DNA of 45,410 bases from positions 1-45,410 of the forward strand of contig CALEHW010000055.1 in the NCBI GenBank assembly GCA_937877715.1. The letters run 5' to 3'. The notes beneath the pieces were generated by a model. It saw nothing but the letters and a program-made list of their open reading frames with translations. It was not told the DNA's origin and ran no database searches. This document shows, one piece after another, positions 5,262 through 31,914 of this stretch. How positions within the stretch are numbered: position 1 is the first letter of the stretch; the number at the start of each line of letters is the position of its first letter. The translations under genes and the position numbers were made by a program. This DNA is from an uncultured Methylophaga sp. GTDB lineage: Bacteria; Pseudomonadota; Gammaproteobacteria; GCF-002020875.

Positions 5262-8200
5262 ATGCCCACCCTAAAAGAATTTATCACAAAGGCTGCACCA
5301 CTCAACCCAGCTCTATCTGAGGATGACCTCACCCAATACTGGGAAGAGAACTACGTCCAAGATGACATTACCCCCGCAACCGATTCACCAGAGTCTCCTA
5401 CATGGGAGGAGTTCCAAGTAAAGGCTGCCCCTCTCAACCCTGAGATGAGTCCCCGTGAGCTGAACGATTACTGGAAGTCTGAGTATGGGGTGGAGACTCC
5501 AGAGCCTCCATCATATTGGGATGCTATTGGTTCTATGTTCAGTCAGGCTGCGGACGTTGGGTTTGAATCTCCATTCCCTGAAAAGATTGATGCACCTGTT
5601 GCGCCTACCGTAGAGATCGGCAATCAAAAGCTGTTCAAGACTGATGGCGCAGTATCGGCCACCTCATGGGCGGACGAGGCAGTAAAGATCCAGTCTCAGA
5701 TTGATGCGGGTGAGATTACAGATGTAGTTGGTCGTGATCTAACTAAACGCCTTGAGTTCGCTAATAAGATGGCGGAAGAGGAGAAGTTCTTCGCTCAAGA
5801 TCCGTCTATATTAGATAAGGCTAAATCAGCAGGGTTGAACCTCGTCAGTGGAATAGTAAACACCACAGCGAGTATCCTGCAAGGGCATGAAATATCCGCA
5901 TTAGATACTGATTGGGGCCGCCTGTCCAACATGGCGAAAACAGACCTTGACGTATCAACAGCTACCCCATTACAGCTCGAAGCATTAAAGATACGAAAGG
6001 TTGAGGCTGAAAGGCTACGTGAGAAGCTCACCTCCAAAGATGGGATGAAGGACTATTTCACCGGATCTGACTGGATAAAGAGTGCTGCCCCTGATCTGGA
6101 GAAGCTAGACCCAAGATTAAAAAGATCCTTTGGGTGGAGTAAGGTTCCTAATGCGTTTGGTTCTGCCACTACGTTCATGGGCGTAACTGCTGCGTTAAAC
6201 TTCGCCACCCGTGGTAAGGCTGGGCCAATTGGTAATGTAGCCTCTATTGCTACGATGGGTTCTCTTGCCCAAGGTGCGAGTGAGTTTGAAGAAGCACTCA
6301 ACGATCCTAACGCCTCATTCGAGGATGCTCTTGATTCCTACGCAGTAGGTCGTCTGGTCGGTACTTCTGAGGCATTTCCTCTAGCTAGAATTCTAAATCG
6401 ACTGGACAAGGCTTCAGCCGGAACAGTTAAGAAGGCTGTTAAGAATATGCTGGTTGAAGGTACTGAGGAGGCACTTCAGGAAACCTTCCAAACAGTAATG
6501 AGCAATCTCGTTAAGAGCGATATTGTTGGCTACAACCCAGATCAGAAGACATGGGTGAATGCGGAAGATGGGGCAGCAGTTGGATTTACCACAGGTACGA
6601 TTCTGTCATTCCTTGGTTCACTTGTCGCTGGTAAGCGGATGCGTAACTTCGGCAAAGAGATGGATGCTCAAGTTGCAGACACTGATCTCAGTGGTCGTGC
6701 CGAACAAGCAGCAACCGATCTGCTAAATCCTCAAAGCTATGACAGCGACATCCTTCCCCCGGATGCCCCACCAATCCCTGTTCCAGAGTCTGAACTAGGC
6801 GATACCACAATAGATATACCTCAACAACCAGCAGTACCTATGTTCGGTACTCCTGAACCATCTGCGGATATACCTCAACAACCCGATACATTAGACCTAC
6901 TCAAGCAGGCAGTAGCTATCCCTCTCCCTGACCCTGTACCCTCTGTTGGAGACACTACTGAACGTAGTGATCTTGATAGTCTTTTGGCAGAAGAGTTACA
7001 GCTATCGGAGCAGCTTAATCAGGCGGCTCAGGTATTCTCCCCCCAAGAGGAGTATCCACGTCTTGCCATAGATGACACTGAGATTGTGCCAGAGGATGCG
7101 ACTTTACGGACTGAAACCCTCCCATCTCTCCCTCCAGAGGGATATGCGCCATCTACCCAAGAAGGAGAGATGGAGCCATTACTTCCTGTAGATCAACCAA
7201 CTACCGATAGTATTGAAACTGATTTCTCATCATTGCAGATTGTTGAGGTTCCTGTTGATGAGTTACAACTCTCTGAGGATGTGCCACAATTCAAGTCAGG
7301 TGCGGATGAGTCTGGTGTTATTGACCCATTAGGCGGGACTTTTGACCGAACTGGAGTTGGACCCATCCAGATATGGGTTCGAGAGAACGGTGATAAAGAG
7401 GTGATTTCTGGTCGTCATCGTCTGGACTTGGCTCAAAGAAGTGGGGAAGAGACCATTCCTGCACAGTATCACTACGAGAGTGCGGGGTTTGATCAAAAAC
7501 AGGCAGCATCTTTGGATGCAACGCTAAACATTAGAGATGAGCAAGGTGAGGTACAAGATTATGTCGAATTTTTCAGAAACTCCTCAATCACGCAAGAACA
7601 TGCAGAGGAACAGGGACTTCTGGCGAGAGCAAAAGGAAAAATGGGGTACGGAATTGCTACACAAGGAGATGATGTCCTTGTCGAAGCGCATCGTTCCGGT
7701 TCCATCACAAATCAACAAGCCTTCCGGATATCCTCAGCAGCACCTAATAATGCCAGACTCCAAACCCTCGGACTAATACAACTTCAAAACAAGAAGTCTC
7801 TTGAGTATACCGAGAATATAATCCGGGCCGTCCAGTCTATGGGCGGAGAATCAGATGCTTCTCAGGGAGATATGTTTGGGTTAGACGATTCGGCTGTCAA
7901 AGAGGCTGAGGCACTTGCACAGGCTGCATCAAACAAGCAGAAAGATATACAAGCAAGAATTACAGCAGGGAAGGGGGCAGCAAAGAACCCCGGAGAAGCA
8001 AAGAAATTAGGTATTGATGTGAGGGACGCAAGGAGCGTTCTGAAACAAATCGCAGAGTTACGAGCAGAGAAAGATCGTTGGAGTAATTGGCATACAGATC
8101 CGGAGTTAGTGGCAGAACTACGAGATGATGCTGGGCTTGAGCAGCAGGAGGAGTCTTTTAATCTTGATACCCAGACTGAGGGATCGCTACAGCAGCAGGA

Positions 8201-11200
8201 AGAACAGCAGGCCGAGGCTCAGACCAAGGAAGATGCAGACAAAGAGGTAGAAGGATTTGACCTCACTGGGCAGAATGTGCCTACCGATGAGAGTATGGAT
8301 CAGGGCGATCTGCTGGCACAACCAGAAGAACCAACAGTAAATCGTGGAACAGTAGGAATGATGCTTGCCACCGATGAGGTGGTAACAACCCAAACCGGGA
8401 GAGAGACTACTCCCTTCCCTACACTCAAATTTGGTACTAATCGACAGGCAACGAATACAGATAAACGTGTAGTAGCGTGGTTGGTCAATAATGCGATTAA
8501 CGAGGCTAAATCCAGAGGGGATGAGTTCAATACTCACCAATTCGAGGCAATTAACCTCAAGAATGTATCTAAGGCAGATAAGGATTCTGCTGAAGAGTAC
8601 CTGTTTGGCGATTCTATTGTGCCGAGTGTTCCAAAGATACTCAAACCGTTAATTCCGGAAACAGAGCAGACTACCCCTCAAGTAACGCCCGAGCTAACTA
8701 AATCAGGTACACCATATAAATCCCAACAGTCTGCGCAGACTGCGCTCAAACTTCGCAGGGAGTATTCCCCTGAAACCCATGAGATAGTGGAAGTAGATGG
8801 TGGGTTTGGGGTTGTGAAAAAGGTAGAGGGGCTTCCGATTTCAACCAAGCCACTCTCCTCCTCAGTGGCCTCCAAGGAGTCGGAAGCCCCACCAATTCAA
8901 CCGAAAGGACTGCAGCCCACTTTCCGTAACCCAGATAATTACGAAGAGACGTGGACTGGTAGAGGCCGTTCTCCTGCATGGGTGAATCAGGCTGAGAAGA
9001 AGTATGGTGGTCGAGATAAGTTAAGGATTGTAAATCAGGAGACTGAAACCAGTGTAGCCAAAAAGACTACTTCCACCCCTAAACAGATTGAATCACTAAT
9101 CGAACAGTACAACGCTACTGGCCGAGTAGCTTTTTATTACCCTCGCAAGAAGGAAATCTCCCTTAATGGTGGCCGAGCCATGAAAGAGGTTGACGCAATA
9201 GGGAGAATGCGTGAGGTGCTTGCTGGAGAAAAGGACACCTCTGCTACAACCAAACCAGAAACAACAGACAGTAACCCTATGCGGGATGTCTTGAAGAAGT
9301 ACATTAAAAACATCCAAGGCATTAACAACCTCTACGGTAAGCAAAATGCTGCTACCCGTCAGGCACTAATGAGTGAATTAACGGGTAAGAAGGTTCCGAA
9401 GGTACAAGCCGGGATTACTGCCCTCAAAGCTAAGGTGTTTGAGGTGTCTGGTATTGACACTATAGGTGGAAAGGACACACTAGCTCAAAGGGAGAAAAGG
9501 TTTGATGCTTGGTTAGCTGCTGCTGAAGAAGTACCGACTAACACAACCACTGAGTTACTGGAGTCTTATGCACAGGAACAGGATGCAGTAGCAACAGACT
9601 GGGCTTCCCGTGAATATAAGGACAATGATAAGACTATTGATCTATCCAACAATGAGTTAAGTGGCAAGGGCTACAACACTATTGGAAATATCAATGCTGG
9701 TCGCAGAGCGAGGAAGGTTGACGAGGCGAAAGGTAATGCCAAACTTGCTCGGCAGATGGTTGAGAGACTCCGCTCAGGTGAGGTGACATTAGAGAGTATT
9801 TACGAGAAAGCGCAACAGAAAGCAGAGGTGATGGATCGTAACGGACAACTTCCCGATGATTTGAGCAGTGAAGAGAAGCTCCAGTATGTTATCAATAAGG
9901 ATCTTGGAGGTGCTGGCACTTGGGGAGAGGGGACACTTGGAGCGAGGGTGATTGAGTTAGCTCAATCAGAAGCCGAGCAATCGCAAGCACATAAAGAGAA
10001 GTTCACTGACCCGGAGACCGGGGAGGTTGATCTGTTGGCTGCATTTCTTGGGGATGAGACTCAGGTTGGTAAGTCTACCGAGACCGCCAACCCTGTAGTA
10101 ACTAAACCAACGTCTACTTCCCCATCTGCACCAATTGAGGATGTTGGTGAGAAGATTGGTGGAGCGAGAAAGGATGTTTGGGGAGGTTTCCGTGACAAGG
10201 TAGAAGCTGACCTGACCGAGGATGAACTACTCAAGATGCCTCTGAGTAAAGCGTTCCCTGAACCAAATTATGAGAAACTGATAGAGCAGGGAGTTCCTGT
10301 AGAGACCCTTGCAATCATTAAGGTGATGCGTAATGAGATTCCTGCCAAAGGCCGCCAGACATGGAAGAGGAAGAGATGGGGTAAGGATGTAGCCGAGCTT
10401 CGATCTGCTGCATCCATGATGATGGATGATCCATCGTTTGCGGATAAATTCCTCTCTGGTATGCGTGATCAGAAAGGGTCGCTGAATACATTGGCAGAGC
10501 AGGTTGATTTGATGGTGGAGCTTGGCTTTCCGCAGGTTAATGCAGCCGGATACGTAATTGAGTACCAGACATTCAAGGAGAGAAACCCGGAGAGTGAGCA
10601 GTTGGAGGAGGTCTCCAAGTGGATGATCAAGGACAAGAAGAGTAAAAGAGGATGGCCGTATATTGGCAAGGGAACGGAAAGTCGTGAAGAGGCGGTCGAG
10701 GTTCTCAAGGCACATCTAGCAGTTCAGGTAACAAGACCTAAAGGTAAGAAAGCAATCGAGTTTACTGTTTACAAGTACAGAGGCAAACAGGGTAAGCGTG
10801 GCTGGATTATTGGTAAGAAGGTGGGGCGTAACCGTATTGATCTGAAGGAGGGGTTTGAGAGTTCTGCGGTGGCTCGTGAATACCTTGAAGGCAATCAGGT
10901 TGCACTTGAGGAGAAACTGACAAATCTAAAAGAGATTCCGGCTCATCGTAAAGAGAGCAACGAACCACGTCTGGGGGAGGACTATCGCCAAGGAAAGGAT
11001 GTTGGGGCAGAAGAGTTCCGAGATACTTTCGGGTTTCGTGGGGTTGAGTTCGGTAACTGGGTTGATCAAGTTAAACGTCAACAAGATATCAATGAGGCTT
11101 ATGATGGGTTGATGGATCTGGCTATCCTGCTGGATGTTCCACCCAAGGCACTCTCACTAAACAGTGAGATGGGCATTGCTTTCGGAGCGAGGGGCAGTGG

Positions 11201-14200
11201 TGGTAAGAATGCAGCCAAGGCCCATTATGAACCCGGCAAGATCGTCATCAACCTGACCAAGAAAAAGGGTGCGGGATCCCTTGCCCATGAGTGGTGGCAT
11301 GGTCTGGATAATTACTTCTCACGGATGCGTGGGGATAAAGTCTCTTACCTGACAGACTCCCCAGTGGGGAAAAGGCGGTTGGTCTCCGGTATGTTTGAGG
11401 ACGATACCTCTGTTCGCCCGGAGATGATTGATCGGTTCAAAGACATTGTAGATGCAATCAAGGCGACTGATCTGCCTACAAGGGCAAAAGAGCTGGATAA
11501 GCGCAGAACCAAGGATTATTGGGCGACTACTATAGAGATGTCAGCCCGTAGTTTTGAGAGCTATGTGATTGGCCGCCTTAAAGACAAGGGGCTATCTAAC
11601 GATTATCTGGCGAATATCGCCAGCCCAGAGTATTGGGATGCCGCTGATGCACTAGGCCTTGAGTCTGCAAACAGTTATCCTTATATACTTGAGCAGGAGA
11701 TGGAGGCCGTTACTGCTGCGTATGATGCCTTCTTCCAAGAGGCTCAGACTAAAGAGACAGAGCAAGGGGTAGCGATTCATGAGCCGTCAATAGAGTACGA
11801 AGCCGGTTCTGTATCTCCCGCCGGGGGTGTATACTCAGGGTATGAGCGAAGTGAAGGCCAAGTACCTAGTGAACGGGAAGGACGTATCGAAGAGTCCGGC
11901 CAAGGTTCTCTTGACTTCTCAAATCCCGCCCCAGCCATACCTGAAGAGAAGCTCCAAGCCGGAGACAACTTCCGCATCAAGTACAGACACACTAAGTCTG
12001 CTGAAATCAAGGTCGGAGTTGACCGAGTAACCAACGCTGAAGAGGCGGCTCATGTACTGAGCCATGTTCGCAAACATCCCGAAGAAGTTTTCTACGCCCT
12101 AGTGTTGGGTAAGGATGGTGAGATCCTCGATGTACAACGTCATGGTAAGGGTTCAAGAGATGGCGCAATAGTTGACCCTTCAGTTATTGGGCCATCTGTT
12201 GCTTCTGTAGAGGGGGCAACAAGTGTCTATTTTGCGCATAATCACCCTTCAGGTATGTTGGCCCCTTCCGGTAGCGATCTAAATATAACAAAGCAATTAG
12301 TAGAGTACGTAGATGGTACGGGGGTGGAGGTCAAAGGCCATGTTGTGTTCGGGCATAATGGGGTTGTCAGCCATTTTAAGGATTCAATTGCCAACGCTCC
12401 GGGGGTCAGCATCAAGCCTCGTCTCCGTAAACGTAGCATTACGGTAACTGAAAGGAAGTTAAGTAAGAGACCTGAGCTTGATCATGCCCTCGCATTATCG
12501 AATCCTGAACAAGCTCTCAGTATTGTAGAAAACGAGATTCAGAGCGAGAACGCCCTAATTTTATTCAACAACCAGAATGTGATGCTTGGTTCAGTAACTC
12601 TCACTCCACAAGAGATGTCTGCACTTCGGGACGGGGATGGCGTGAGTCGCATTGTAAAAGCGATTGATACCACCAATGCTGTTGTGGGAGTCATTAAATC
12701 TACATCAGAGGAGTCTGCAAAGAATCTTGCCAGATTCATAAACAAAGGTAGCAAACTAAGATTACTTGATGCTTTTGTGCGGGATAGTGCAGGTAGTTAT
12801 AAAAGTTCAGCAAAACATGGTCAAGGGGTTGAGACATCAGAGGGGGCGTTCTTCTCTACTGATGACACCCGTGAAACTTCTACCCCCCTTGCACAAGATG
12901 CAGTAAAAACCATCGTCAACCGTATCGCGGCGAACCGTATCGGCAAAAAGGCTCGGATTGAGATTGTACCCTCGGAGTCTGCGTTGCCTTCTGCGATACA
13001 GAAACAGGCCGAAGAGGATGGCGCAACCCGCCAGATAGAAGGTGTATTCCATAGAGGCAAAGTCTACGTTGTTGCTGACAGGATGACCAGTGAGGCCAAG
13101 GTGGAGGAGACTCTTCTCCATGAGGCAATTGGGCATCAAGGTGGTCGCTGGTTGTTCGGTAAGGATGTAAAGAAAGCCTACAACAAGCTCTACCTCATGC
13201 TCGGCAGTAAGGGCGTGCGGGATGTTGCGGCCAAACACGACATCGATATTGATCAATATATCAAGACTGCCAAGGATAGACTAAAGAGTGGGACTACCAC
13301 CTACGAAGACCATAATGCGTTTATCGTGGATGAGTTACTTGCTCAGATGCAGGGCAAGAAGGCTTATGAGTCCATGCCCACCAAGTTTAAGAACGCAGTT
13401 AAAGTGTTGTGGGGAGCCGTTCGTGACTCCCTACGTATCCGTGGGTTTATGACCTCTGCAAAACTGACCGACTCAGACCTCCAGTTCCTGATGAACAAGA
13501 TGCGTAAGGCAACTCGGAAGGGTGGAGAGATTGATAAGAGTGACAGGCCGGTATTCATGGTGGCATGGCATGGTACTCCTCATAACGTAGACAAGTTCAG
13601 CAGTGAGAAGATCGGTACTGGTGAGGGAGCTGCTGCGTATGGGCATGGTCTGTACTTCGCTGGTAAGAGGGAGGTTGCTGAGTGGTATAGGGATAATCTG
13701 TCCACGAACAATCTACCGGAGGCTACTGACGAAACTATCGCCTACGATGTTCTTAACGATTACCACTTTGACCCTAAAGAGGATATTGATGGAATTGTAG
13801 AGAGTGCATCAGATCGCACTGTCAGAAGGGAGATGCGCGGAGGGGATTACCACTTCATTTTTGAGGATGGGTCTCGTCTTGTTCACACTACAGATGACAC
13901 TCTTGAGATTTACGGTAAAGGTGAAGGTAACCTCTACCAAGTAGAACTCGCTCCGAATGAGGATGAGTACCTGCTGTGGGACAAGCCGCTGAGTGAGCAG
14001 AGTGAGAAGGTGAGGGATGTTATTGCGAGCCTTGAGGATGGCTATGGGGATTATGGTGATGTCTCAGGATTTGGAGAAGACATCTATCGTGCAATAGAAC
14101 AGCGTGATGGTAAGAAGGAAGCATCCGAGTACCTCCACTCCCTAGGCATTCGTGGGATTAAGTATCTGGATGGAAGCAGCCGTGGCAAGGGGGAGGGGGA

Positions 14201-17078
14201 TTACAACTATGTCATCTTCAACGATGAGGATGTGAGTATTGAGGGGAATTTCTCCAGACAGTCCCGCCAATCCCCACGGGTGCAGAATGATGAACAAATT
14301 GTGTTCATCGGTAAAGGTCCGGATGACTATCTCATTAGTACCCACCCTTCATTAAAGGATCGGAGCAGACTCAGTAAAGAGTTCAGTAAATACTTCGCCT
14401 CGAAAGGCAATCTCTCGCAAGAGGCGTTCAACCTCAAGATTGAGATGGAGGGAATGAAGGGAGAAGAGGAGGTTGAGGTAGCAGATCTTGCAATGAATGT
14501 AAGACGGGTTGCCAAAACAGCATACAGCAAGAGATATAACAAACTCAGTGATGAGCAGAAAATTGCTATAAACAGCCGACTCCAAGGGGAAGATATAGAT
14601 CTACCCGGAGAGCTGAATGATGCAGTAGATGCTATGCGTATCCACCTTGATGGGCTATCTGGAAAGATGCAGGCTATGGTGTTGGAGAACATCAGGTATC
14701 GTCTGGATTCAATCTCTCCTGAAAAGAGAGATTCTGCGCTGGCAGAGATTACCAAGATGCGGGATGCAATAGCAAATGGGGTTACTACTCTCGATGAAGC
14801 AGAATTGACTCTGGGTGAGATCGACCCCTATATCGCAGGGAAGATCCGTACCTATTTCACCATTGAAGGGAATAAGGGACATTACCTGAATCGCTCTTAT
14901 CAGGCGTTTGATGACCCGTCTTGGGCAGATAAAGTACGTAAAGATGAGGCAGTGATGGAGGCTGCCCGTAACTATTTCCGTGAAAAGATCTTTGAGGTCG
15001 AGGGGCTGGAAGGAGATGTTCTGGAGACCCGTGTTAATGGCACGATCAATAGTATTCTTAACGCAGCAATTGAGAAACGGGATATGCTTTCGTTCCTCTC
15101 TTCCCCACAATTGGGGCAGAAGAATCTCGGCATTCTCAGGCACAGAAAGGAGTTGGATCCTGCAGTAATGAACCTTCTGGGGGTATATACAGACCCACTA
15201 GCTAACTATTCACGCACTGCGACCAAAATGAGTTGGTTGATTGCCAACCACACGTTCTTGAAAGGTATCCGTGACCAAGGAATGAAATCATTCCTCTCTA
15301 CCAGAGCTACCGAGAGAATGAGCAGTATAGTCCGTCCATTTGACCCAGAGACCATGAGTCCGGTAACTGGGTTGTACGCTACCCCTGAATTTGCAGACGC
15401 TTTAAGGGAGGCAACTGATCCTGATAACGCTACTGAGATGATCAAGTTCCTCCGTAAACTGAATGGTGTAGTCAAGTTCGGTAAGGTTGCGATTGCACCT
15501 ACTACACAGGTGAGAAACTTCCTCTCTGCAGGAATAGGTTTGGCGATGAATGGTCACTTTAACGTGCTTCACGCAACAAAAGCCTTTTCTGTTACTTGGA
15601 ATGATCTTCGCTCTACCGGGAAAAAGAGGGAGTACATCAAGGAGCTGGTTCGTGAGGGAGTGTTACATAACTCAGTCCGTGCAGGGGAGATGACAACCTA
15701 TCTTGATGATGTGGTCTCTTCCGATAAATGGGCCTCCGGGTTACGAGGATCTGTCAAACGTACTGGTGACTTCTTCGCCACTCTTTACCGGATGGGAGAC
15801 GATTTCTGGAAGGTGATTGCTTATGAGAACGAGAAGACATCCATAAAACGCTGGTATGGGTTAAGTGAGGCAGAGGCCAAGAAGAAAGCAGCAGAGCGTA
15901 TTCGTAATGGCTACATGACCTACAGCCATGTACCGAAAGCGATCCGCCATCTACGTAGAAACGTACTGGTGGGGGCGTTTGTCTCCTTCCCAGCCGAGGT
16001 GATCCGTACCACCAAAAATCAGTTTGTCATTATGGGAGAGGATGCAAGAGCTGGTCACATGGTCCCAGTTGCAAGACGGGTAGTAGGTATGGCGGCTGCA
16101 TTCTCGGTGATTGAGATGTTGGCAGAAAAAGCGATGGACGCAGTTGGTTTCGGTGATGACGATGATGAGGCAATGCACCTACTCTCCGCTGAATATGCTC
16201 GTAACAGTCGCTTCTATTACAGTCGGGACGATGAGGGAAATTTAGTGAAGATGGATCTCTCGTATATTGATCTCTACGGCAACCTGAAACGCCCTATCTA
16301 TGCACTGCTGAATGACAATAATGAAGGGGTAATAGAAAAACTTGGAGATGCTATCACTGAGATTGCAGAACCCTTTATTGGTTGGGACATTCTCTCCGGA
16401 GCAGTCTTCGAGATACTGGCAAACAAGAAACGTAATGGAGGGCCGGTATATAACGAAACTGACAGCAGGGAAAAGCAGGCAGCAGATATTGCAGAACATC
16501 TGGCTCGTGCCGCTGCCCCCGGTGTAGCAACCAATATCGAGAGAATATCGAAGGCAATAACAGGTGAAGTCTCTAGCTCGGGCAGGAAGTATACCTTGCG
16601 GGATGAGGCGGCTGCTCTTGGAGGTATGCGTTGGTCCACGGTAGATGTTTCTACAGCAATGCGTTACCGGATAGGAGACTTCAAACATAAGCGATCTGAG
16701 GCCTCAAGGATTCTTTCAAGAGAACTACGTAATCCTAATGATCTTTCAAGGAAGGATCTGAAAGCAATCTGGACTAGAATGAGTAATGCTAGGGACAGGG
16801 TGTTTAGTGATACACATAAATTGGTTATTGCAGCCCAAAAACTAGGGATGAGTAAAAAGCAGTTGAACCACCTGATCAGTGCAAACGGGGTAGGGGATCG
16901 TGATCGTTACGCATTGATGAACGGTACACCATCCCCATACAGACTGACTAGAGTACAGAAGAAGGGAGTTGTTAAACGTGCATTGGGTGGGGTAGAGGAT
17001 CCGGTAGAACGTACCAAGATTAAGAACCGTGTTCGGGAAAGGTTCGAGCTGTTATTGGAGATTCAGGGAAGGCGTTAA
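5262..17078 (+). CDS. Giant polyvalent protein: ParB-like, two HExxH peptidases, JAMM/RadC, ADP-ribosyltransferase
   Basis: 3938 residues in one open frame; AGGA lies 8 bases before the ATG. Visible order: a tandem 30-residue motif (KAAPLNP..YW..Y) at 1-32 and 46-78; hydrophobic Gly/Ala segments near 296-320 and 437-457; a Pro/acid-rich linker to about 640; a ParB-like domain about 657-850 with GRHR at 717-720; helical regions; a region resembling polyvalent-associated domain LPD1 with HEWWH at 2009-2013; a RadC/JAMM domain with HNHPSG at 2326 and the metal pattern H2326-x-H2328-x10-D2339; a second peptidase-like region with HEAIGH at 2620-2625; an ADP-ribosyltransferase-like region starting WHGTPH at 2769 with YGHGLYFA at 2793; and a C-terminal part from about 3250 resembling LPD38. 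Polyvalent proteins of this type are thought to enter the cell with phage DNA and modify or protect it. Activities and substrates here are inferred. Confidence 0.85.
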   Translation: MPTLKEFITKAAPLNPALSEDDLTQYWEENYVQDDITPATDSPESPTWEEFQVKAAPLNPEMSPRELNDYWKSEYGVETPEPPSYWDAIGSMFSQAADVGFESPFPEKIDAPVAPTVEIGNQKLFKTDGAVSATSWADEAVKIQSQIDAGEITDVVGRDLTKRLEFANKMAEEEKFFAQDPSILDKAKSAGLNLVSGIVNTTASILQGHEISALDTDWGRLSNMAKTDLDVSTATPLQLEALKIRKVEAERLREKLTSKDGMKDYFTGSDWIKSAAPDLEKLDPRLKRSFGWSKVPNAFGSATTFMGVTAALNFATRGKAGPIGNVASIATMGSLAQGASEFEEALNDPNASFEDALDSYAVGRLVGTSEAFPLARILNRLDKASAGTVKKAVKNMLVEGTEEALQETFQTVMSNLVKSDIVGYNPDQKTWVNAEDGAAVGFTTGTILSFLGSLVAGKRMRNFGKEMDAQVADTDLSGRAEQAATDLLNPQSYDSDILPPDAPPIPVPESELGDTTIDIPQQPAVPMFGTPEPSADIPQQPDTLDLLKQAVAIPLPDPVPSVGDTTERSDLDSLLAEELQLSEQLNQAAQVFSPQEEYPRLAIDDTEIVPEDATLRTETLPSLPPEGYAPSTQEGEMEPLLPVDQPTTDSIETDFSSLQIVEVPVDELQLSEDVPQFKSGADESGVIDPLGGTFDRTGVGPIQIWVRENGDKEVISGRHRLDLAQRSGEETIPAQYHYESAGFDQKQAASLDATLNIRDEQGEVQDYVEFFRNSSITQEHAEEQGLLARAKGKMGYGIATQGDDVLVEAHRSGSITNQQAFRISSAAPNNARLQTLGLIQLQNKKSLEYTENIIRAVQSMGGESDASQGDMFGLDDSAVKEAEALAQAASNKQKDIQARITAGKGAAKNPGEAKKLGIDVRDARSVLKQIAELRAEKDRWSNWHTDPELVAELRDDAGLEQQEESFNLDTQTEGSLQQQEEQQAEAQTKEDADKEVEGFDLTGQNVPTDESMDQGDLLAQPEEPTVNRGTVGMMLATDEVVTTQTGRETTPFPTLKFGTNRQATNTDKRVVAWLVNNAINEAKSRGDEFNTHQFEAINLKNVSKADKDSAEEYLFGDSIVPSVPKILKPLIPETEQTTPQVTPELTKSGTPYKSQQSAQTALKLRREYSPETHEIVEVDGGFGVVKKVEGLPISTKPLSSSVASKESEAPPIQPKGLQPTFRNPDNYEETWTGRGRSPAWVNQAEKKYGGRDKLRIVNQETETSVAKKTTSTPKQIESLIEQYNATGRVAFYYPRKKEISLNGGRAMKEVDAIGRMREVLAGEKDTSATTKPETTDSNPMRDVLKKYIKNIQGINNLYGKQNAATRQALMSELTGKKVPKVQAGITALKAKVFEVSGIDTIGGKDTLAQREKRFDAWLAAAEEVPTNTTTELLESYAQEQDAVATDWASREYKDNDKTIDLSNNELSGKGYNTIGNINAGRRARKVDEAKGNAKLARQMVERLRSGEVTLESIYEKAQQKAEVMDRNGQLPDDLSSEEKLQYVINKDLGGAGTWGEGTLGARVIELAQSEAEQSQAHKEKFTDPETGEVDLLAAFLGDETQVGKSTETANPVVTKPTSTSPSAPIEDVGEKIGGARKDVWGGFRDKVEADLTEDELLKMPLSKAFPEPNYEKLIEQGVPVETLAIIKVMRNEIPAKGRQTWKRKRWGKDVAELRSAASMMMDDPSFADKFLSGMRDQKGSLNTLAEQVDLMVELGFPQVNAAGYVIEYQTFKERNPESEQLEEVSKWMIKDKKSKRGWPYIGKGTESREEAVEVLKAHLAVQVTRPKGKKAIEFTVYKYRGKQGKRGWIIGKKVGRNRIDLKEGFESSAVAREYLEGNQVALEEKLTNLKEIPAHRKESNEPRLGEDYRQGKDVGAEEFRDTFGFRGVEFGNWVDQVKRQQDINEAYDGLMDLAILLDVPPKALSLNSEMGIAFGARGSGGKNAAKAHYEPGKIVINLTKKKGAGSLAHEWWHGLDNYFSRMRGDKVSYLTDSPVGKRRLVSGMFEDDTSVRPEMIDRFKDIVDAIKATDLPTRAKELDKRRTKDYWATTIEMSARSFESYVIGRLKDKGLSNDYLANIASPEYWDAADALGLESANSYPYILEQEMEAVTAAYDAFFQEAQTKETEQGVAIHEPSIEYEAGSVSPAGGVYSGYERSEGQVPSEREGRIEESGQGSLDFSNPAPAIPEEKLQAGDNFRIKYRHTKSAEIKVGVDRVTNAEEAAHVLSHVRKHPEEVFYALVLGKDGEILDVQRHGKGSRDGAIVDPSVIGPSVASVEGATSVYFAHNHPSGMLAPSGSDLNITKQLVEYVDGTGVEVKGHVVFGHNGVVSHFKDSIANAPGVSIKPRLRKRSITVTERKLSKRPELDHALALSNPEQALSIVENEIQSENALILFNNQNVMLGSVTLTPQEMSALRDGDGVSRIVKAIDTTNAVVGVIKSTSEESAKNLARFINKGSKLRLLDAFVRDSAGSYKSSAKHGQGVETSEGAFFSTDDTRETSTPLAQDAVKTIVNRIAANRIGKKARIEIVPSESALPSAIQKQAEEDGATRQIEGVFHRGKVYVVADRMTSEAKVEETLLHEAIGHQGGRWLFGKDVKKAYNKLYLMLGSKGVRDVAAKHDIDIDQYIKTAKDRLKSGTTTYEDHNAFIVDELLAQMQGKKAYESMPTKFKNAVKVLWGAVRDSLRIRGFMTSAKLTDSDLQFLMNKMRKATRKGGEIDKSDRPVFMVAWHGTPHNVDKFSSEKIGTGEGAAAYGHGLYFAGKREVAEWYRDNLSTNNLPEATDETIAYDVLNDYHFDPKEDIDGIVESASDRTVRREMRGGDYHFIFEDGSRLVHTTDDTLEIYGKGEGNLYQVELAPNEDEYLLWDKPLSEQSEKVRDVIASLEDGYGDYGDVSGFGEDIYRAIEQRDGKKEASEYLHSLGIRGIKYLDGSSRGKGEGDYNYVIFNDEDVSIEGNFSRQSRQSPRVQNDEQIVFIGKGPDDYLISTHPSLKDRSRLSKEFSKYFASKGNLSQEAFNLKIEMEGMKGEEEVEVADLAMNVRRVAKTAYSKRYNKLSDEQKIAINSRLQGEDIDLPGELNDAVDAMRIHLDGLSGKMQAMVLENIRYRLDSISPEKRDSALAEITKMRDAIANGVTTLDEAELTLGEIDPYIAGKIRTYFTIEGNKGHYLNRSYQAFDDPSWADKVRKDEAVMEAARNYFREKIFEVEGLEGDVLETRVNGTINSILNAAIEKRDMLSFLSSPQLGQKNLGILRHRKELDPAVMNLLGVYTDPLANYSRTATKMSWLIANHTFLKGIRDQGMKSFLSTRATERMSSIVRPFDPETMSPVTGLYATPEFADALREATDPDNATEMIKFLRKLNGVVKFGKVAIAPTTQVRNFLSAGIGLAMNGHFNVLHATKAFSVTWNDLRSTGKKREYIKELVREGVLHNSVRAGEMTTYLDDVVSSDKWASGLRGSVKRTGDFFATLYRMGDDFWKVIAYENEKTSIKRWYGLSEAEAKKKAAERIRNGYMTYSHVPKAIRHLRRNVLVGAFVSFPAEVIRTTKNQFVIMGEDARAGHMVPVARRVVGMAAAFSVIEMLAEKAMDAVGFGDDDDEAMHLLSAEYARNSRFYYSRDDEGNLVKMDLSYIDLYGNLKRPIYALLNDNNEGVIEKLGDAITEIAEPFIGWDILSGAVFEILANKKRNGGPVYNETDSREKQAADIAEHLARAAAPGVATNIERISKAITGEVSSSGRKYTLRDEAAALGGMRWSTVDVSTAMRYRIGDFKHKRSEASRILSRELRNPNDLSRKDLKAIWTRMSNARDRVFSDTHKLVIAAQKLGMSKKQLNHLISANGVGDRDRYALMNGTPSPYRLTRVQKKGVVKRALGGVEDPVERTKIKNRVRERFELLLEIQGRR

Positions 17079-26357: not shown

Positions 26358-27065
26358 TTACTCCAAGTCCCGGATAACCTGACGAACCACCCCTACGATT
26401 ACTGCATCCGTAAGCATCTCCATAATAGGGTAGCGTTGGTTATCTGGTTGGAGGTATTTACGACCCCCATCAATGACGAGGCGTTTGCAGGTAGCTTCTG
26501 TGTTGTGGTTTTGGCGAACCACTACGATGGAGTTGTTCTTGGGGTCCCTATTAGGGTCTACTATGATAATAGAACCATTAGGTATCGCTGGTTCCATAGA
26601 GTCTCCATGTATATGTAGGGCAAACGCCTTATCATCTACCTTGGCTGTGGTGACAACCCAATCCTCAGCATCATTTGGGATGAATCTGTCTACAACCTCC
26701 CCCCAGTCTCCGGCAGTAGTCCAAGAGATAAGAGGAACCTTTCGTTGAATTTTTGGTGGGGGAGGGGTAGCCACAAAGGACATAAAATTGCTTGAGGGGG
26801 GTTGGTTGAGCATGCCTCTATGGGGGGTTCTTCTGCTGCGAGGAACTACTCCACTATCCAATAAACCTCCCCCAGCCAACAGCCACTCGGTAGGTACACT
26901 CAAAGCAACTGCTATCTTCTCTGCATCAGTATACGATGGCTCTCTGGCCCCTGTCTCATAATGAGAGATCCTGCTTTGTGATTGCCAGCCGCACAATTGA
27001 GCTAGTGCTGGTTGCGATAACCCCCTATCTTTTCTTGCCAATTTAATACGTTTTCCGATATTCAT
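26358..27065 (-). CDS. cI: CI-like repressor with LexA/S24 autoprotease domain
   Basis: 235 residues. N-terminal XRE-type HTH (IGKRIKLARKDRGLSQPALA, then QSQSRISHYETG). The C-terminal S24 domain has the self-cleavage site TTAGDW (A118-G119), catalytic Ser156 (HGDSMEP) and Lys194 (CKRL). It lies between OL and OR, transcribed opposite to cro. RecA-stimulated self-cleavage and SOS induction follow from the family. The maintenance promoter is not clear; OR2 lies about 36 bases upstream of its start. Confidence 0.92.
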   Translation of the reverse strand: MNIGKRIKLARKDRGLSQPALAQLCGWQSQSRISHYETGAREPSYTDAEKIAVALSVPTEWLLAGGGLLDSGVVPRSRRTPHRGMLNQPPSSNFMSFVATPPPPKIQRKVPLISWTTAGDWGEVVDRFIPNDAEDWVVTTAKVDDKAFALHIHGDSMEPAIPNGSIIIVDPNRDPKNNSIVVVRQNHNTEATCKRLVIDGGRKYLQPDNQRYPIMEMLTDAVIVGVVRQVIRDLE

Positions 27066-27157: not shown

Positions 27158-27370
27158 ATGCAGATACTAAAAGATTACCGTGAACAACATGGCTTCACTC
27201 AATTGGAAATGGCTGGGAAGTTGGGGGTTTCACAATCAATGATTCAACTGGTGGAGAATGGAAAACGAGGGTTAGGACGACAAGCCTCATACAAACTCCA
27301 CCAACTAGATCCAAAGGTCTTCAAATTAGATCTCCTCCTCTGCCCTGATTGCGCCCCCAAAGCGGCCTAA
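27158..27370 (+). CDS. cro: Cro-like repressor
   Basis: 70 residues. An XRE-type HTH takes up residues 5-40 (YREQHGFTQLEMAGKLGVSQ, then SMIQLVENGKRG). A Cys pair (LLCPDCAPKAA) ends the chain. It is divergent from cI, with OR between. There is no ribosome binding site; the ATG is at the expected transcription start, suggesting a leaderless message. Function as Cro is inferred from family and position. Confidence 0.85.
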   Translation: MQILKDYREQHGFTQLEMAGKLGVSQSMIQLVENGKRGLGRQASYKLHQLDPKVFKLDLLLCPDCAPKAA

Positions 27371-27384
27371 ATTTAATTAGCATT

Positions 27385-27633
27385 ATGGAGGGAGTATCTC
27401 AAACTGGGAAGGAAAGAACAGGAAAGAACAGGCAACGAATAGATTCTGCGCTGCTTGAGGCGGGGAAACGTGCCGCATTAGCCTCTGAGATGGGGATCTC
27501 TGAGGGGCAACTATCAAAGATGGTCAACGGCAGCATCAATCAGTGGTGCAAACTACTGGAGCTACTGAGATTGGAAATCCGGGAGGTGGCTTACATTGAG
27601 GGGTTGGAACGGCTGCTGAAAGAAAAACTTTAA
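27385..27633 (+). CDS. cII: CII-like transcription activator
   Basis: 82 residues from the ATG at 27385 (MEGVSQTG); an upstream start would overlap cro. RQRIDSALLEAGKRAALASE, then GISEGQLSKMVNGSINQWCK, matches the CII HTH pattern and length, in the place of lambda cII. Direct repeats of the lambda TTGC type were not found, so its targets here are unknown. Confidence 0.75.
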   Translation: MEGVSQTGKERTGKNRQRIDSALLEAGKRAALASEMGISEGQLSKMVNGSINQWCKLLELLRLEIREVAYIEGLERLLKEKL

Positions 27634-27678: not shown

Positions 27679-27704
27679 CATCATTAAGACAAGGAGAATT
27701 ATAC

Positions 27705-27737
27705 ATGGATATTGTGGGGGCGCACAATGATGAGTGA
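27705..27737 (+). CDS. Ten-codon leader ORF before the replicase
   Basis: ATG at 27705 follows AAGGAG at ideal spacing, and the frame (MDIVGAHNDE) ends at TGA 27735-27737, which overlaps the start of the replicase gene (ATGATGAGTGA). It is the best ribosome binding site in the region, so the leader probably couples translation to the replicase. It could also be a chance remnant. Confidence 0.4.
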   Translation: MDIVGAHNDE

Positions 27738-30700
27738 GCAGAAAGATACGCCGACTAAGTTGCTCACTCCAAAGACTATTGCAGAGGAGTTGGGGGGTGC
27801 AACACAGGAGGGGGAGAGTTGGTTAGCATTCTGCCCCTCCCATGAAGACACTACAACCCCTTCACTGGTTATTAGTAAAGGAAGCAAGGCAGGAAATGGG
27901 TTAATGGTTCATTGTCGGGCCGGATGTAAATCCCGAGAGGTGATTCGTGCATTGGATGAGAGATCATTGTGGCCTTCCAAGCAGCGTAAGAAACGTAAAG
28001 AGAAGCAGGCAGAGTATAACTACTACCTTGCTGATGGGACGTATGCTTTCACCAAAGTCCGGTTTCTCAAATCTACTGGGGACAAGACATTCGAGATTGG
28101 GAGGCATGATAAGGATGCGTCTAATGGTTGGAAGAAAGGGCTTCCTAAACTAACCCACAAACTACTCTATAAACTCCCTGAACTGATTGAATATGACCCA
28201 GATCGGGTTATCTTCATTGTTGAGGGCGAGAAGGATGTGGATAACCTGATTGCATTAGGTTGTCAGGCTACCTGTAACCATGATGGGGCGGGTGGTTGGA
28301 AGGATGACTTCAACCACTGGTTTGCGGGGTTGAATGTGGTGGTGCTGCCAGATAATGATCGTGCAGGAAGAGACCACGCCAAAGAGGTGGTTGAGAGTCT
28401 CAGTGGGGTTGTTAATAGTATACGGGTATTGGCCCTCCCAGATCTCCCGGAGAAGGGGGATGTGAGTGATTGGTTGGAGGCTGGAGGAGATCGTGAGGAG
28501 TTAGGGCGGTTGGTTGTAGAAAAGGCCGGGGAGTTTGAGGCTGATTGGCGAGACCAACTACTGATAACTGAGGGAGATAAACCAAAAGTCAAGAATCTTG
28601 AGTTTAATTATGTATTGTACCTCAGACACCATGAGGCATTTGAAGGGCAGCTACGTTACAACGAGTTCACTAATAACATTACTTATATAGGAGAGGAGTC
28701 TACTGAGACTACTGAGACACAGGTAATTTGCCGCCTCCAAGAGATGGGATTGACCGCAGGACGGGACAAGGTAGTTGCTGCACTCAAGTTAATAGCAATG
28801 GAGAACCCCTACGACCCTCTCAGGGACTACGTGGAGGAGCTTGTCTGGGATGGTACTCCAAGATTAAAGAGTTGGTTGCATGATTATATGGGGGCGAAGG
28901 TTCAATCTGACGAGTATCTGGAGTGTATAGGCACACGTTGGATGGTCTCAGGCATTGCCAGAGCAATGATTCCGGGATGTAAGGCTGACCAGTGGTTGAT
29001 TCTCGAAGGGGGGCAGGGAAAGAAGAAATCTACCGGATTGGAAGCATTAAGTCCTTATGAGAGATGGTTTCAGGACCAGTTGCCAGATGTTAGTAAAAAC
29101 ACTAAAGATGCAAAAATGTCCCTGTTTGGCCGCTGGGTGGTAGAGATTGCGGAGTTGGAGGCGATCCGTAAAGCAGATCAGGAGGCGGTGAAGAAGTTTG
29201 CCTCGTTGCGAATTGACCGTGAACGCCTCCCGTATGATCGTAGATACAGTGACCTTCCACGCAGATGTGTGTTTGCCGGAACCCATAATCCGGGAATAGA
29301 TGAGGGGTATCTAACTGATTCAACCGGGGCGAGGAGATTCTTGCCAGTAGATGTATCAGAGCTGGATGTGGCTGCAATTGCAAGGGATCGTGATCAGTTG
29401 TGGGCCGAGGCCAAGACGTTATTTGATGCAGGGGAGAGGTGGTGGACCGAACCTACAGATGCGGGGGTCTTGGACGAACAGCGTAAGAGATTCAAGACCA
29501 CAGAGTATGCAGAAGAGGCGTTTGATTACCTTGAATTTGAGCCAATTCAGTCACTGGAGATACCTCATCACGTTACGTGGCAGATGCGGGACACTCCTTT
29601 GGAGGTGTTCATTCCTAAGTATTTTTGGGCGGATCGGTTCGGTGAGCAGTGGGTAAAAGCACCATGGCAGGCTAAGAAAGATATCAATGGAGCGTTCCAA
29701 AATGCAGGGTGGAAAAAGGTCTATCAAAGGTTCCCAGAGCTTGCAAAAGACCATGAAGATGACACTAGAAAGATGCTTTCAGGGTGGCTCAACCTGTCTG
29801 GCTCAACCTGTCCTAGTGGAGGGGGTAATGGAGGGGGTAATGAAATACCAGATAAAAACAGTCAAGAAATAGAAACTCATAAAACCGAAAAAACAGGTGG
29901 TTTTAGACAGGTTGAGCCACAGGTTGAGCCACAGGTTGAGCCACAGGTTGAGCCACCAAAAACAGGTTGGGAAAACAAGGGTTTACCTCTAAATGGCTCA
30001 ACTGGCTCAACTACTATTAAGGTAAAAGACAAGGAAAAAGGAGAGGAGGGTATTGTAGAGGGTAATATAGAGGGTATAGAGAAAGAGGAAATGTTTGACA
30101 GACAGGTTGAGCCAAATCCCACTCTCTCCACGCACGGATTTACGAAGAATCAAGTAGTTACAGGTGAGGGGGTTGGTAACTCATTGAAACCCCAACCTGT
30201 TTTTTCTACGGTTAGCGATATAGGTGCGATGGTTGCGTTTTCAGACGGTCCAATCGGTTTGGATTTTGAAACTACCTCTCTGCAGCCGTTCGACGGGAGG
30301 GTGCGATTGATTCAAGTGTGGAGAGGGGGTGAGGGACATGTAGTGGATTTGGATCAGGTTGGTGGGTTGGAGGTATTGAAGGATGCGCTAGAGCCGGGAC
30401 ACTTCGTTGCGTTCAATGCCCAATTTGAACTTGCATGGTTGAGAGATGCAGGAATTCATGTCAAACGACTTGATGATGCGAAATTGGCGTATGCAGCACT
30501 TTATGGAGGAACTACCTCCTTGGAGAAGGCGTGTAAGCAGTTCCTTGGGGTTGAGCTGGATAAGATGTGGCAGAAATCGAATTGGAATGGGGAGCTTTGC
30601 GAGGAGCAGATCCAATATGCGATTGATGATGCTGTGTATGCCTTGAGGTTGTGGCAGTTATTTGTGCCTCAGATGGAAGAGCAGGAGGTTATTGGGGGAT

Positions 30701-31914
30701 ATGAGCTGTTGCGAAAGGCAATGTGGCCTCTTGCCTTAATGCAGGAGGCGGGAATGCAGTTTGATCTCAAGACTCATGTAGTGATGGTTGAGAAGCTGGA
30801 GCGGGGTAAAGAGTTGGCAGATCGGTGGTTACATACCCATGTACCTGATGTTCTTAATTGGCAAAGTACCAAACAGATCCAGACGTGGTTGCGGCCTTAT
30901 CTGGATCGTAAGGCACGATTTAAGTGGTCGAAGACCAATACTGGAAAGTTGTCGGTAGGGTCGCCTGCAATTCGTGAGGCGTTTTCCAATGGGATTGTGC
31001 CAAAAGAGCTGCAGCGAGTGTTTGCAGTGTATCTACTGCGGCAGAACCGGACTACATATCTCAAGACTTTTGGATCCTCACTTGCCAAACGAGTGCGGGA
31101 GGATGGTCGGGTCTATGGAAGTTTGCAGATTAGTGGGGCAGTGACTGGAAGGATGAGTTCATCAAAACCGAATTTGCAAAACTTCCCAAATAGTAAAGGG
31201 TTTAGGGAACTGTTTGTGGCAGGACCGGGGAACAAGATAGTGGTATGTGATTACAGCCAGATCGAGGTGCGGGTGGGAGGTATGTTGGCGGAGGAACCTG
31301 TACTAAGGGAAATTTTCAAGAAGGGGCATGATGTTCATACAGCTAGTGCTGCAATGATGTTCAACAAACCGATGGAAGAGGTTATGAAGGGGGAGCGTAA
31401 ACAGGCCAAGGGGCTGACGTTTGGTATGCAGTATGGGATGGGGACCAAGGCACTGGCGAAGATGTTGGGGTTGAGTGTGCGAGAAGCTGAGAGCCGGGTT
31501 AGGCAGTGGGAAGAGACTTATCCGCAGGTAGCCAAGTGGCGAAAAGATCAGGCAGTACAGGGAACTGAGGAGAAAGAGCTGTTTACAGCGGGGGGTAGAC
31601 GGATTCAGTTGCCAGAGAGGGTCTCTCCAAGTATCTGTTACAACTATCCGGTGCAGGGAAGTGCTGCAGATGTGATGTATGCCGCCTTGAGGATTCTGGC
31701 GGAAGAGGTTGAGATTGAGAAGAAGTTGGGGGTCTGGAAGATGTTGACGGTGGTACATGATGAGGTGGTGATGGAGGTCCCGGAGAGGGAGGCTGGTGAG
31801 GCTGCCAAGGTTTTAGAGGATTGCATGATTGCTGGATATTTTGCAGTTTTCCCTGATGCGGATGCTACAGGGTTGGTCGATGCCTCAATTGGTGATAACT
31901 GGGCTGCCAAGTGA
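27727..31914 (+). CDS. Fused primase-helicase-family A DNA polymerase
   Basis: 1395 residues from the ATG at 27727 (the ATG at 27730 or TTG at 27712 are also possible). Order: a zinc finger with C36, H39, C63 and C67; TOPRIM with VEGEKD (E166) and DND (D209, D211); a VirE/SF3-like helicase, about 350-620, with Walker-type EGGQGKKKST (428-436, Lys433 where Gly is usual); a hydrophilic linker, about 685-830; a 3'-5' exonuclease with LDFETTS (D846, E848), FNAQFE and YAIDDA; then family A polymerase motifs DYSQIEVR (D1175), R1224-x3-K1228-x3-F1232-x3-YG and VHDEV (D1345). The frame is open throughout. It would unwind, prime and copy phage DNA in one chain. The linker DNA contains iterons. Confidence 0.93.
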   Translation: MMSEQKDTPTKLLTPKTIAEELGGATQEGESWLAFCPSHEDTTTPSLVISKGSKAGNGLMVHCRAGCKSREVIRALDERSLWPSKQRKKRKEKQAEYNYYLADGTYAFTKVRFLKSTGDKTFEIGRHDKDASNGWKKGLPKLTHKLLYKLPELIEYDPDRVIFIVEGEKDVDNLIALGCQATCNHDGAGGWKDDFNHWFAGLNVVVLPDNDRAGRDHAKEVVESLSGVVNSIRVLALPDLPEKGDVSDWLEAGGDREELGRLVVEKAGEFEADWRDQLLITEGDKPKVKNLEFNYVLYLRHHEAFEGQLRYNEFTNNITYIGEESTETTETQVICRLQEMGLTAGRDKVVAALKLIAMENPYDPLRDYVEELVWDGTPRLKSWLHDYMGAKVQSDEYLECIGTRWMVSGIARAMIPGCKADQWLILEGGQGKKKSTGLEALSPYERWFQDQLPDVSKNTKDAKMSLFGRWVVEIAELEAIRKADQEAVKKFASLRIDRERLPYDRRYSDLPRRCVFAGTHNPGIDEGYLTDSTGARRFLPVDVSELDVAAIARDRDQLWAEAKTLFDAGERWWTEPTDAGVLDEQRKRFKTTEYAEEAFDYLEFEPIQSLEIPHHVTWQMRDTPLEVFIPKYFWADRFGEQWVKAPWQAKKDINGAFQNAGWKKVYQRFPELAKDHEDDTRKMLSGWLNLSGSTCPSGGGNGGGNEIPDKNSQEIETHKTEKTGGFRQVEPQVEPQVEPQVEPPKTGWENKGLPLNGSTGSTTIKVKDKEKGEEGIVEGNIEGIEKEEMFDRQVEPNPTLSTHGFTKNQVVTGEGVGNSLKPQPVFSTVSDIGAMVAFSDGPIGLDFETTSLQPFDGRVRLIQVWRGGEGHVVDLDQVGGLEVLKDALEPGHFVAFNAQFELAWLRDAGIHVKRLDDAKLAYAALYGGTTSLEKACKQFLGVELDKMWQKSNWNGELCEEQIQYAIDDAVYALRLWQLFVPQMEEQEVIGGYELLRKAMWPLALMQEAGMQFDLKTHVVMVEKLERGKELADRWLHTHVPDVLNWQSTKQIQTWLRPYLDRKARFKWSKTNTGKLSVGSPAIREAFSNGIVPKELQRVFAVYLLRQNRTTYLKTFGSSLAKRVREDGRVYGSLQISGAVTGRMSSSKPNLQNFPNSKGFRELFVAGPGNKIVVCDYSQIEVRVGGMLAEEPVLREIFKKGHDVHTASAAMMFNKPMEEVMKGERKQAKGLTFGMQYGMGTKALAKMLGLSVREAESRVRQWEETYPQVAKWRKDQAVQGTEEKELFTAGGRRIQLPERVSPSICYNYPVQGSAADVMYAALRILAEEVEIEKKLGVWKMLTVVHDEVVMEVPEREAGEAAKVLEDCMIAGYFAVFPDADATGLVDASIGDNWAAK
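29785..30114. repeat. ori: Iteron cluster, candidate replication origin
   Basis: CAGGTTGAGCCA occurs four times in perfect tandem (29908-29955) and again at 30103-30114. Its reverse complement TGGCTCAACCTG occurs twice with a 14-bp period (29785, 29799), and the 9-bp half TGGCTCAAC twice (29994, 30003). Purine-rich, A-rich DNA follows. All lie in the replicase linker. In lambda the origin iterons also lie inside the initiator gene, so an origin is a reasonable inference. Confidence 0.65.

Follow-up and report, generated by a model that had tools for sequence, protein, structure and literature searches.

The window, by which we mean the whole stretch of 45,410 nucleotides analysed here, is a contig of a temperate phage. 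Its genes follow the order integrase, CI-like repressor, Cro-like and CII-like regulators, the fusion gene that is the subject of this report, VRR-NUC endonuclease, small and large terminase, SU10-type portal protein and adaptor. The fusion gene and its nearest neighbours are:

26358 to 27065, reverse strand: gene of a CI-like repressor (HTH and S24 peptidase)
27158 to 27633, forward strand: genes of a Cro-like HTH protein and a CII-like regulator
27727 to 31914, forward strand: primase-helicase-exonuclease-polymerase fusion gene, from the ORF, Pfam and PHROG profiles and its copy in contig L001
31911 to 32201, forward strand: VRR-NUC endonuclease gene, overlapping the stop codon of the fusion gene

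The start of the fusion gene is overlapped, in another frame, by a 10-codon ORF (27705-27737, forward strand) that has a good Shine-Dalgarno sequence (AAGGAG at 27691), and translational coupling between the two is possible. Elsewhere on the contig, a quarter of the length is filled by the gene of a giant polyvalent protein of 3938 aa (5262-17078, forward strand) with LPD5, LPD1, RadC-like JAB and H-NS C-terminal domains, and a 39-bp tandem repeat of 4.5 copies is found at the contig end (45128-45302).

ORF analysis finds a single uninterrupted frame of 1395 codons in the fusion gene, and its product is composed of the following domains:

27832 to 27927, forward strand: primase zinc finger, residues 36-67 (C36, H39, C63, C67), from the NCBIfam dnaG profile, with ligands invariant in the clade
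28171 to 28512, forward strand: TOPRIM primase catalytic domain, residues 149-262, from profiles and from matches to DnaG and T7 gp4 primase in sequence and fold
28834 to 29496, forward strand: VapE-like AAA+ helicase domain, residues 370-590, from Pfam VapE-like_dom and the match to 7pds (PriRep1)
29506 to 29790, forward strand: helicase C-terminal domain, residues 594-688, the putative origin-binding part, from an AlphaFold2 model
30250 to 30675, forward strand: 3'-5' exonuclease domain, residues 842-983, from Pfam and a model with pLDDT of about 90
30829 to 31905, forward strand: family A DNA polymerase domain, residues 1035-1393, from Pfam and its Klenow fold

The Pfam families VapE-like, DNA_pol_A_exo1 and DNA_pol_A match the helicase, exonuclease and polymerase domains over the residues listed with E-values of 3.9e-65, 1.2e-17 and 1.3e-65. 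Toprim_2 of Pfam scores weakly in the fusion protein (0.057); the primase half is matched by PHROG primase/helicase profiles and by the NCBIfam profiles PRK07078 (residues 88-259, E = 2.1e-24) and dnaG zinc finger (residues 27-53, E = 1e-5), and its family profile retrieves DnaG cores and the T7 gp4 primase in a PDB search. The first-pass annotation had described the exonuclease and polymerase motifs as present and the primase and TOPRIM residues as intact, and this was confirmed in an alignment with four relatives, in which the functional residues are also invariant. They comprise the zinc ligands C36, H39, C63 and C67, the TOPRIM residues E166 and D209-x-D211, Q430, G431, K434, S435 and T436 of the Walker A motif GQGKKKST (residues 429-436), E473/E476 and R536/R537 of the helicase, D846, E848, E901, Y964 and D968 of the exonuclease, and D1175, K1228, Y1236 and H1344-D1345-E1346 of the polymerase. 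The zinc finger and the TOPRIM domain with its E and DxD are those of a DnaG/T7-type primase, with primer synthesis as its predicted activity. The helicase, with Walker A, Walker B and arginine residues in a VapE AAA+ domain and a DNA-binding-like C-terminal domain, is of the VapE/PriRep type. Motifs A, B and C of family A are all present in the polymerase, and the exonuclease has the exo I, II and III residues of a DEDDy enzyme, with Glu for Asp in exo II. This residue (901, at 30427-30429) is Asp in Klenow, and the Glu is kept across the clade.

AlphaFold2 models were built from alignments of the window and viral sequences. Residues 820-1395 adopt the Klenow fold (pLDDT 90.9), with Klenow and Plasmodium apPol as the best fold matches and a TM score of 0.86 to 1kfs. 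For residues 1-691 (pLDDT 86) the top fold match is 7pds, the structure of PriRep1 with dsDNA, which in a PDB profile search is also the best solved relative of the helicase by sequence; T7 gp4 and DnaG stand lower in the list of fold matches. Residues 594-688 form a block with pLDDT of about 84-92 and the order helix-helix-strand-strand, which is compatible with a winged helix, and this C-terminal domain may bind DNA.

The same gene is present in L001, an independent viral contig from another metagenome, where it again encodes 1395 aa, with 91% amino acid identity and a linker of the same length. The region of 29.7-30.2 kb had been flagged as a place to check for an assembly join, and we conclude that the fusion is not such a join because the linker has the same length on this independent contig. 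The fusion also occurs in three diverged contigs, L122, L207 and L292 (polymerase identity 44-47%), whose open frames, counted from stop to stop, have 1459, 1431 and 1416 codons; this brings the number of fused contigs to five. In L040 and L121 the same primase-helicase and polymerase are encoded by adjoining separate genes in different frames, with the stop TAA and the start ATG 2 nt apart, and the helicase tail and the polymerase leader together have about the linker length of the fused members. Relatives with two separate genes at this locus, which had been named beforehand as counting against the fusion, do therefore exist, but they are a minority of two in seven clade members. A maximum-likelihood tree places all seven in one clade (support 100/100), in which the fused and split states require two changes; L122 is sister to the split pair with weak support (81/57). 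The outgroup polymerase L200 overlaps a gene directly upstream that, identified from sequence alone, encodes a TOPRIM-containing helicase-like protein. Adjacency of the two halves, as in the split clade members and in L200, is thus common, and what characterises this clade is the fusion.

Between the window and L001, synonymous and nonsynonymous codon changes in the domains stand at 79:19, 132:22 and 154:50, which indicates purifying selection on the domains of the fusion gene. The earlier description of primase, helicase, exonuclease and family A polymerase in a single frame is thus borne out by the five contigs, this selection and the intact active sites. Two further genes were seen in passing. 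A 1000-aa ORF in L204 (JAAYJV010000070.1, L204:4684-7683) joins a zinc-finger-like and TOPRIM primase to an exonuclease-PolA without a helicase, and appears to be another, different primase-polymerase fusion. L209:6986-9034 encodes a TOPRIM-VapE protein whose primase half is close to that of the window, and the fetched flanks contain no polymerase.

Our searches show that the fusion is rare. The polymerase half of the clade has no match at E<=1e-50 in 50,697 phage records, and in all listed phage matches that span both halves the helicase and the polymerase are separate genes. No other match spanning both halves was found among the matches listed for 398 genomes of the phylum sample, and the phage and plasmid searches gave only separate or diverged genes. 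A scan of genome contigs with a two-sequence alignment, from which poor patterns were drawn, gave no match, and one with the polymerase alignment gave seven diverged polymerases, none of them fused to a VapE helicase. We found no description of a VapE-PolA fusion in the open-access literature, and none is among the helicase neighbours of viral PolAs in the accessible part of Keown 2022.

The most informative feature of the locus is one that the first-pass annotation did not contain, namely the iteron-like DNA of the linker between the helicase and the exonuclease. Its elements are:

29797 to 30216, forward strand: low-complexity interdomain linker, residues 691-830, fast-evolving by the codon changes between the window and L001
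29785 to 29812, reverse strand: two inverted iteron-like copies GGCTCAACCTGT, read as WLNL and GST
29839 to 29898: AT-rich 60-mer (72% AT) between the inverted and the direct copies, a candidate unwinding element
29907 to 29956, forward strand: four tandem 12-bp iteron-like copies ACAGGTTGAGCC, read as QVEP
29994 to 30011, reverse strand: two truncated inverted copies TGGCTCAAC
30091 to 30093, forward strand: in-frame ATG (Met789), 57 residues before the exonuclease Asp846, a possible internal or relic start
30102 to 30113, forward strand: fifth direct iteron-like copy ACAGGTTGAGCC

Between 29785 and 30113 the nine-base motif GGTTGAGCC occurs in seven copies, of which five are direct and two inverted, and in none elsewhere in the 45.4 kb contig. 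In a sliding window, 223 repeated 8-mer pairs are counted at the joint against a contig mean of 6.8 (sd 5.4), a value reached nowhere else, so that the joint is the top cluster of short repeats on the contig. The same peak is found at the same joint in six of the seven clade contigs; the joint of L040 has degenerate repeats only. The motif itself differs between relatives (GGTAAGGT in L122, GGGTGAGGT in L207, GTGGGAGGT in L292 and AGGTGAGG in L121), and its copies are confined to the linker, with counts in the linker and elsewhere of 7 and 0 in the window, 10 and 0 in L122, 9 and 0 in L207 and 5 and 0 in L121. In L207 and L292 eight copies correspond in order and orientation and are spaced almost identically, and the motif is altered in all eight (L207:9161-9482 and L292:6650-6941). 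AT-rich stretches accompany the repeats, the extreme being a 60-mer of 90% AT in L122; in the window, AT-richness as high as that of the 60-mer is found in 0.27% of the 60-bp windows of the contig.

Synonymous recoding of the window linker leaves a mean of 15 and a maximum of 50 repeated 8-mer pairs, compared with the 223 observed, and a maximum of 16 inverted pairs compared with 107. The motif is translated in three frames in the window, and its bases are 95.2% identical between the window and L001, as against 79.4% in the linker outside the iterons; at third codon positions of the domains the identity is 67-71%. In residues 681-830 nonsynonymous changes outnumber synonymous ones by 38 to 17, the opposite of every domain. 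The recoding, the frame changes and the base identities point to selection on the linker repeats as DNA rather than as peptide, and homogenisation of the copies may contribute to the iteron identity. Judged by these comparisons, the repeats show both constraint at the DNA level and concerted evolution.

Comparable repeats are found at other VapE genes. In 27 of 99 VapE loci, duplicates included, a repeat cluster of more than 10 SD over the locus background lies at the 3' end of the helicase gene; without the clade and the duplicates, about 15 distinct contigs remain. Strong clusters, each with a motif of its own, were seen in L046, L119, L035, L083, L041, L039 and L014, and they include loci without a neighbouring polymerase, such as those of Marinobacter phage PS3 (L039) and a Komagataeibacter plasmid element (L035). 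It is possible that clusters of this kind are a general marker of replication origins. In staphylococcal satellites, Rep binds through its C-terminal domain to an iteron origin situated immediately after the rep gene (PMC7581432). The fusion gene likewise has short repeats and AT-rich DNA 3' of the helicase part, but they are inside the open frame and not downstream of the coding gene. The simplest reading of the linker DNA would be that it is a replication origin, although at 72% the AT-rich segment of the window is modest for one. Because the polymerase is joined behind the putative origin, the origin would be translated as a hinge, and the phage seems to pack an enzyme set and its start signal into one gene. 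That the origin itself is translated as a protein hinge, which then evolves at the pace of the recognition between initiator and iteron, we consider an even chance.

The reading we prefer, with a probability of roughly 60%, is that an initiator of replication, able to load itself, is fused to its polymerase and that the hinge-coding DNA contains the origin. Two neighbouring genes would have been joined, one for a TOPRIM primase-VapE helicase of the PriRep or satellite Rep kind and one for an exonuclease-family A polymerase. The helicase part would form hexamers, and its C-terminal domain would recognise the iteron-like repeats in the linker-coding DNA. The helicase would melt the AT-rich segment, load itself there and then unwind. 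Primers would be laid by the TOPRIM part and extended right behind the helicase, with proofreading, by the polymerase on its flexible linker.

We infer that the protein is an intact single chain in the cell. It might also be a polyprotein or have a dual product, in which cleavage of the linker or an internal start of the polymerase yields separate working enzymes, and we regard this as somewhat unlikely. Plasmodium PREX, one polypeptide that is cleaved into primase, helicase and polymerase (PMC9631997), provides a precedent, and the protein sequence of the linker is barely constrained. Met789 in the window and L001 and Met823 in L122 lie 56-58 residues before the exonuclease Asp, and the split polymerases of L040 and L121 start 59 residues before it. 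However, Met789 is without a good Shine-Dalgarno sequence, having only a GAGG two bases upstream, and L207 and L292 have GTG codons but no in-frame ATG at that position.

The repeats look like binding sites under any reading, and they could serve as an operator, partition or packaging site, for instance in autorepression or as a pac site for the small terminase, whose gene starts about 0.85 kb past the fusion gene and 2.6 kb from the last iteron. We think this unlikely. The repeats follow the VapE gene even at loci where no polymerase is next to it, they come with AT-rich stretches, and the origins of related satellite Rep helicases are found at the same place, while an operator would be expected in a promoter position. 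Selection of the repeats for a QVEP-type hinge peptide is highly improbable: QVEP units do recur in frame in the window and L001, but the inverted copies encode WLNL and GST, the linkers of other relatives have GKV, NLT, TSP and GEV in their place, and the repeats are destroyed by synonymous recoding, which together with the frame changes leads us to reject peptide selection as their source. An assembly or sequencing artefact that joined two genes, as the adjoining separate genes of L040 and L121 might suggest, has a negligible probability and is ruled out by the recurrence of the fusion in L001 at 91% identity and in the three diverged contigs.

Returning to the fusion of an initiator with its polymerase, there are partial parallels among known systems. 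Like the fusion, PREX has primase, helicase, 3'-5' exonuclease and family A polymerase in one chain, and its apPol is among the best solved relatives of the fusion polymerase by both sequence and fold. The PREX helicase is T7 gp4/Twinkle-like, unlike the VapE-like helicase of the fusion, and we know of no origin-like linker in PREX. PREX is a nuclear eukaryotic gene that serves the apicoplast, and its product is cleaved after import (PMC9631997). The PolA polyprotein of Pyrovirus/OS3173, from viruses of Aquificae, is a helicase fused to an exo-polymerase (1606 aa), and fused and split members coexist in the genus (PMC7689252), as they do in this clade. The Pyrovirus helicase is of the DUF927 kind, for which Pfam gives no match in the fusion protein, whereas the fusion has a VapE-like helicase and a zinc-finger/TOPRIM primase. 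These cases also bear on the earlier remark that a whole replication fork enzyme set in one chain would be unusual: such a chain is rare but not without precedent, and 'whole' was overstated as there is no SSB, clamp or ligase.

PriRep and the Rep proteins of SaPI and SCC, which are self-loading helicases, share with the fusion the VapE helicase and the repeats at the 3' end of the gene, but their known origins come after the gene and they have no fused polymerase, whereas the fusion translates the repeats as a linker. The fusion gene sits where lambda has O and P, after cI/cro/cII-like genes. The lambda iterons lie inside gene O. Four iterons are bound by the lambda initiator (PMC3985674). 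Lambda O is, however, an initiator only and depends on host helicase, primase and polymerase. The same two enzyme types are found in one replication cluster in the Acutalibacteraceae phage NatCom_11578 and the Corynebacterium phage IME1320_01, but in phages of this type they are separate genes with the polymerase upstream, and identity is about 27-30% over the matched parts. Three features set the fusion apart: its helicase family, the iterons in its linker and, relative to Pyrovirus, its zinc-finger/TOPRIM primase.

If the origin is indeed translated as the hinge, a single gene holds the replicator DNA together with the main enzymes for copying it. The protein would be a compact replication machine, self-loading and made of one chain, and a model for the coupling of helicase and polymerase, with a possible use as an enzyme for isothermal amplification. 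Because the copies of the iteron motif change together and their arrangement is preserved, the clade is a natural series for finding the origin-reading residues in the C-terminal domain of VapE, and the clusters of L207 and L292 amount to a natural experiment on how origins are recognised. Testing for repeats in the same way may also reveal origins in other phages with VapE-type helicases.
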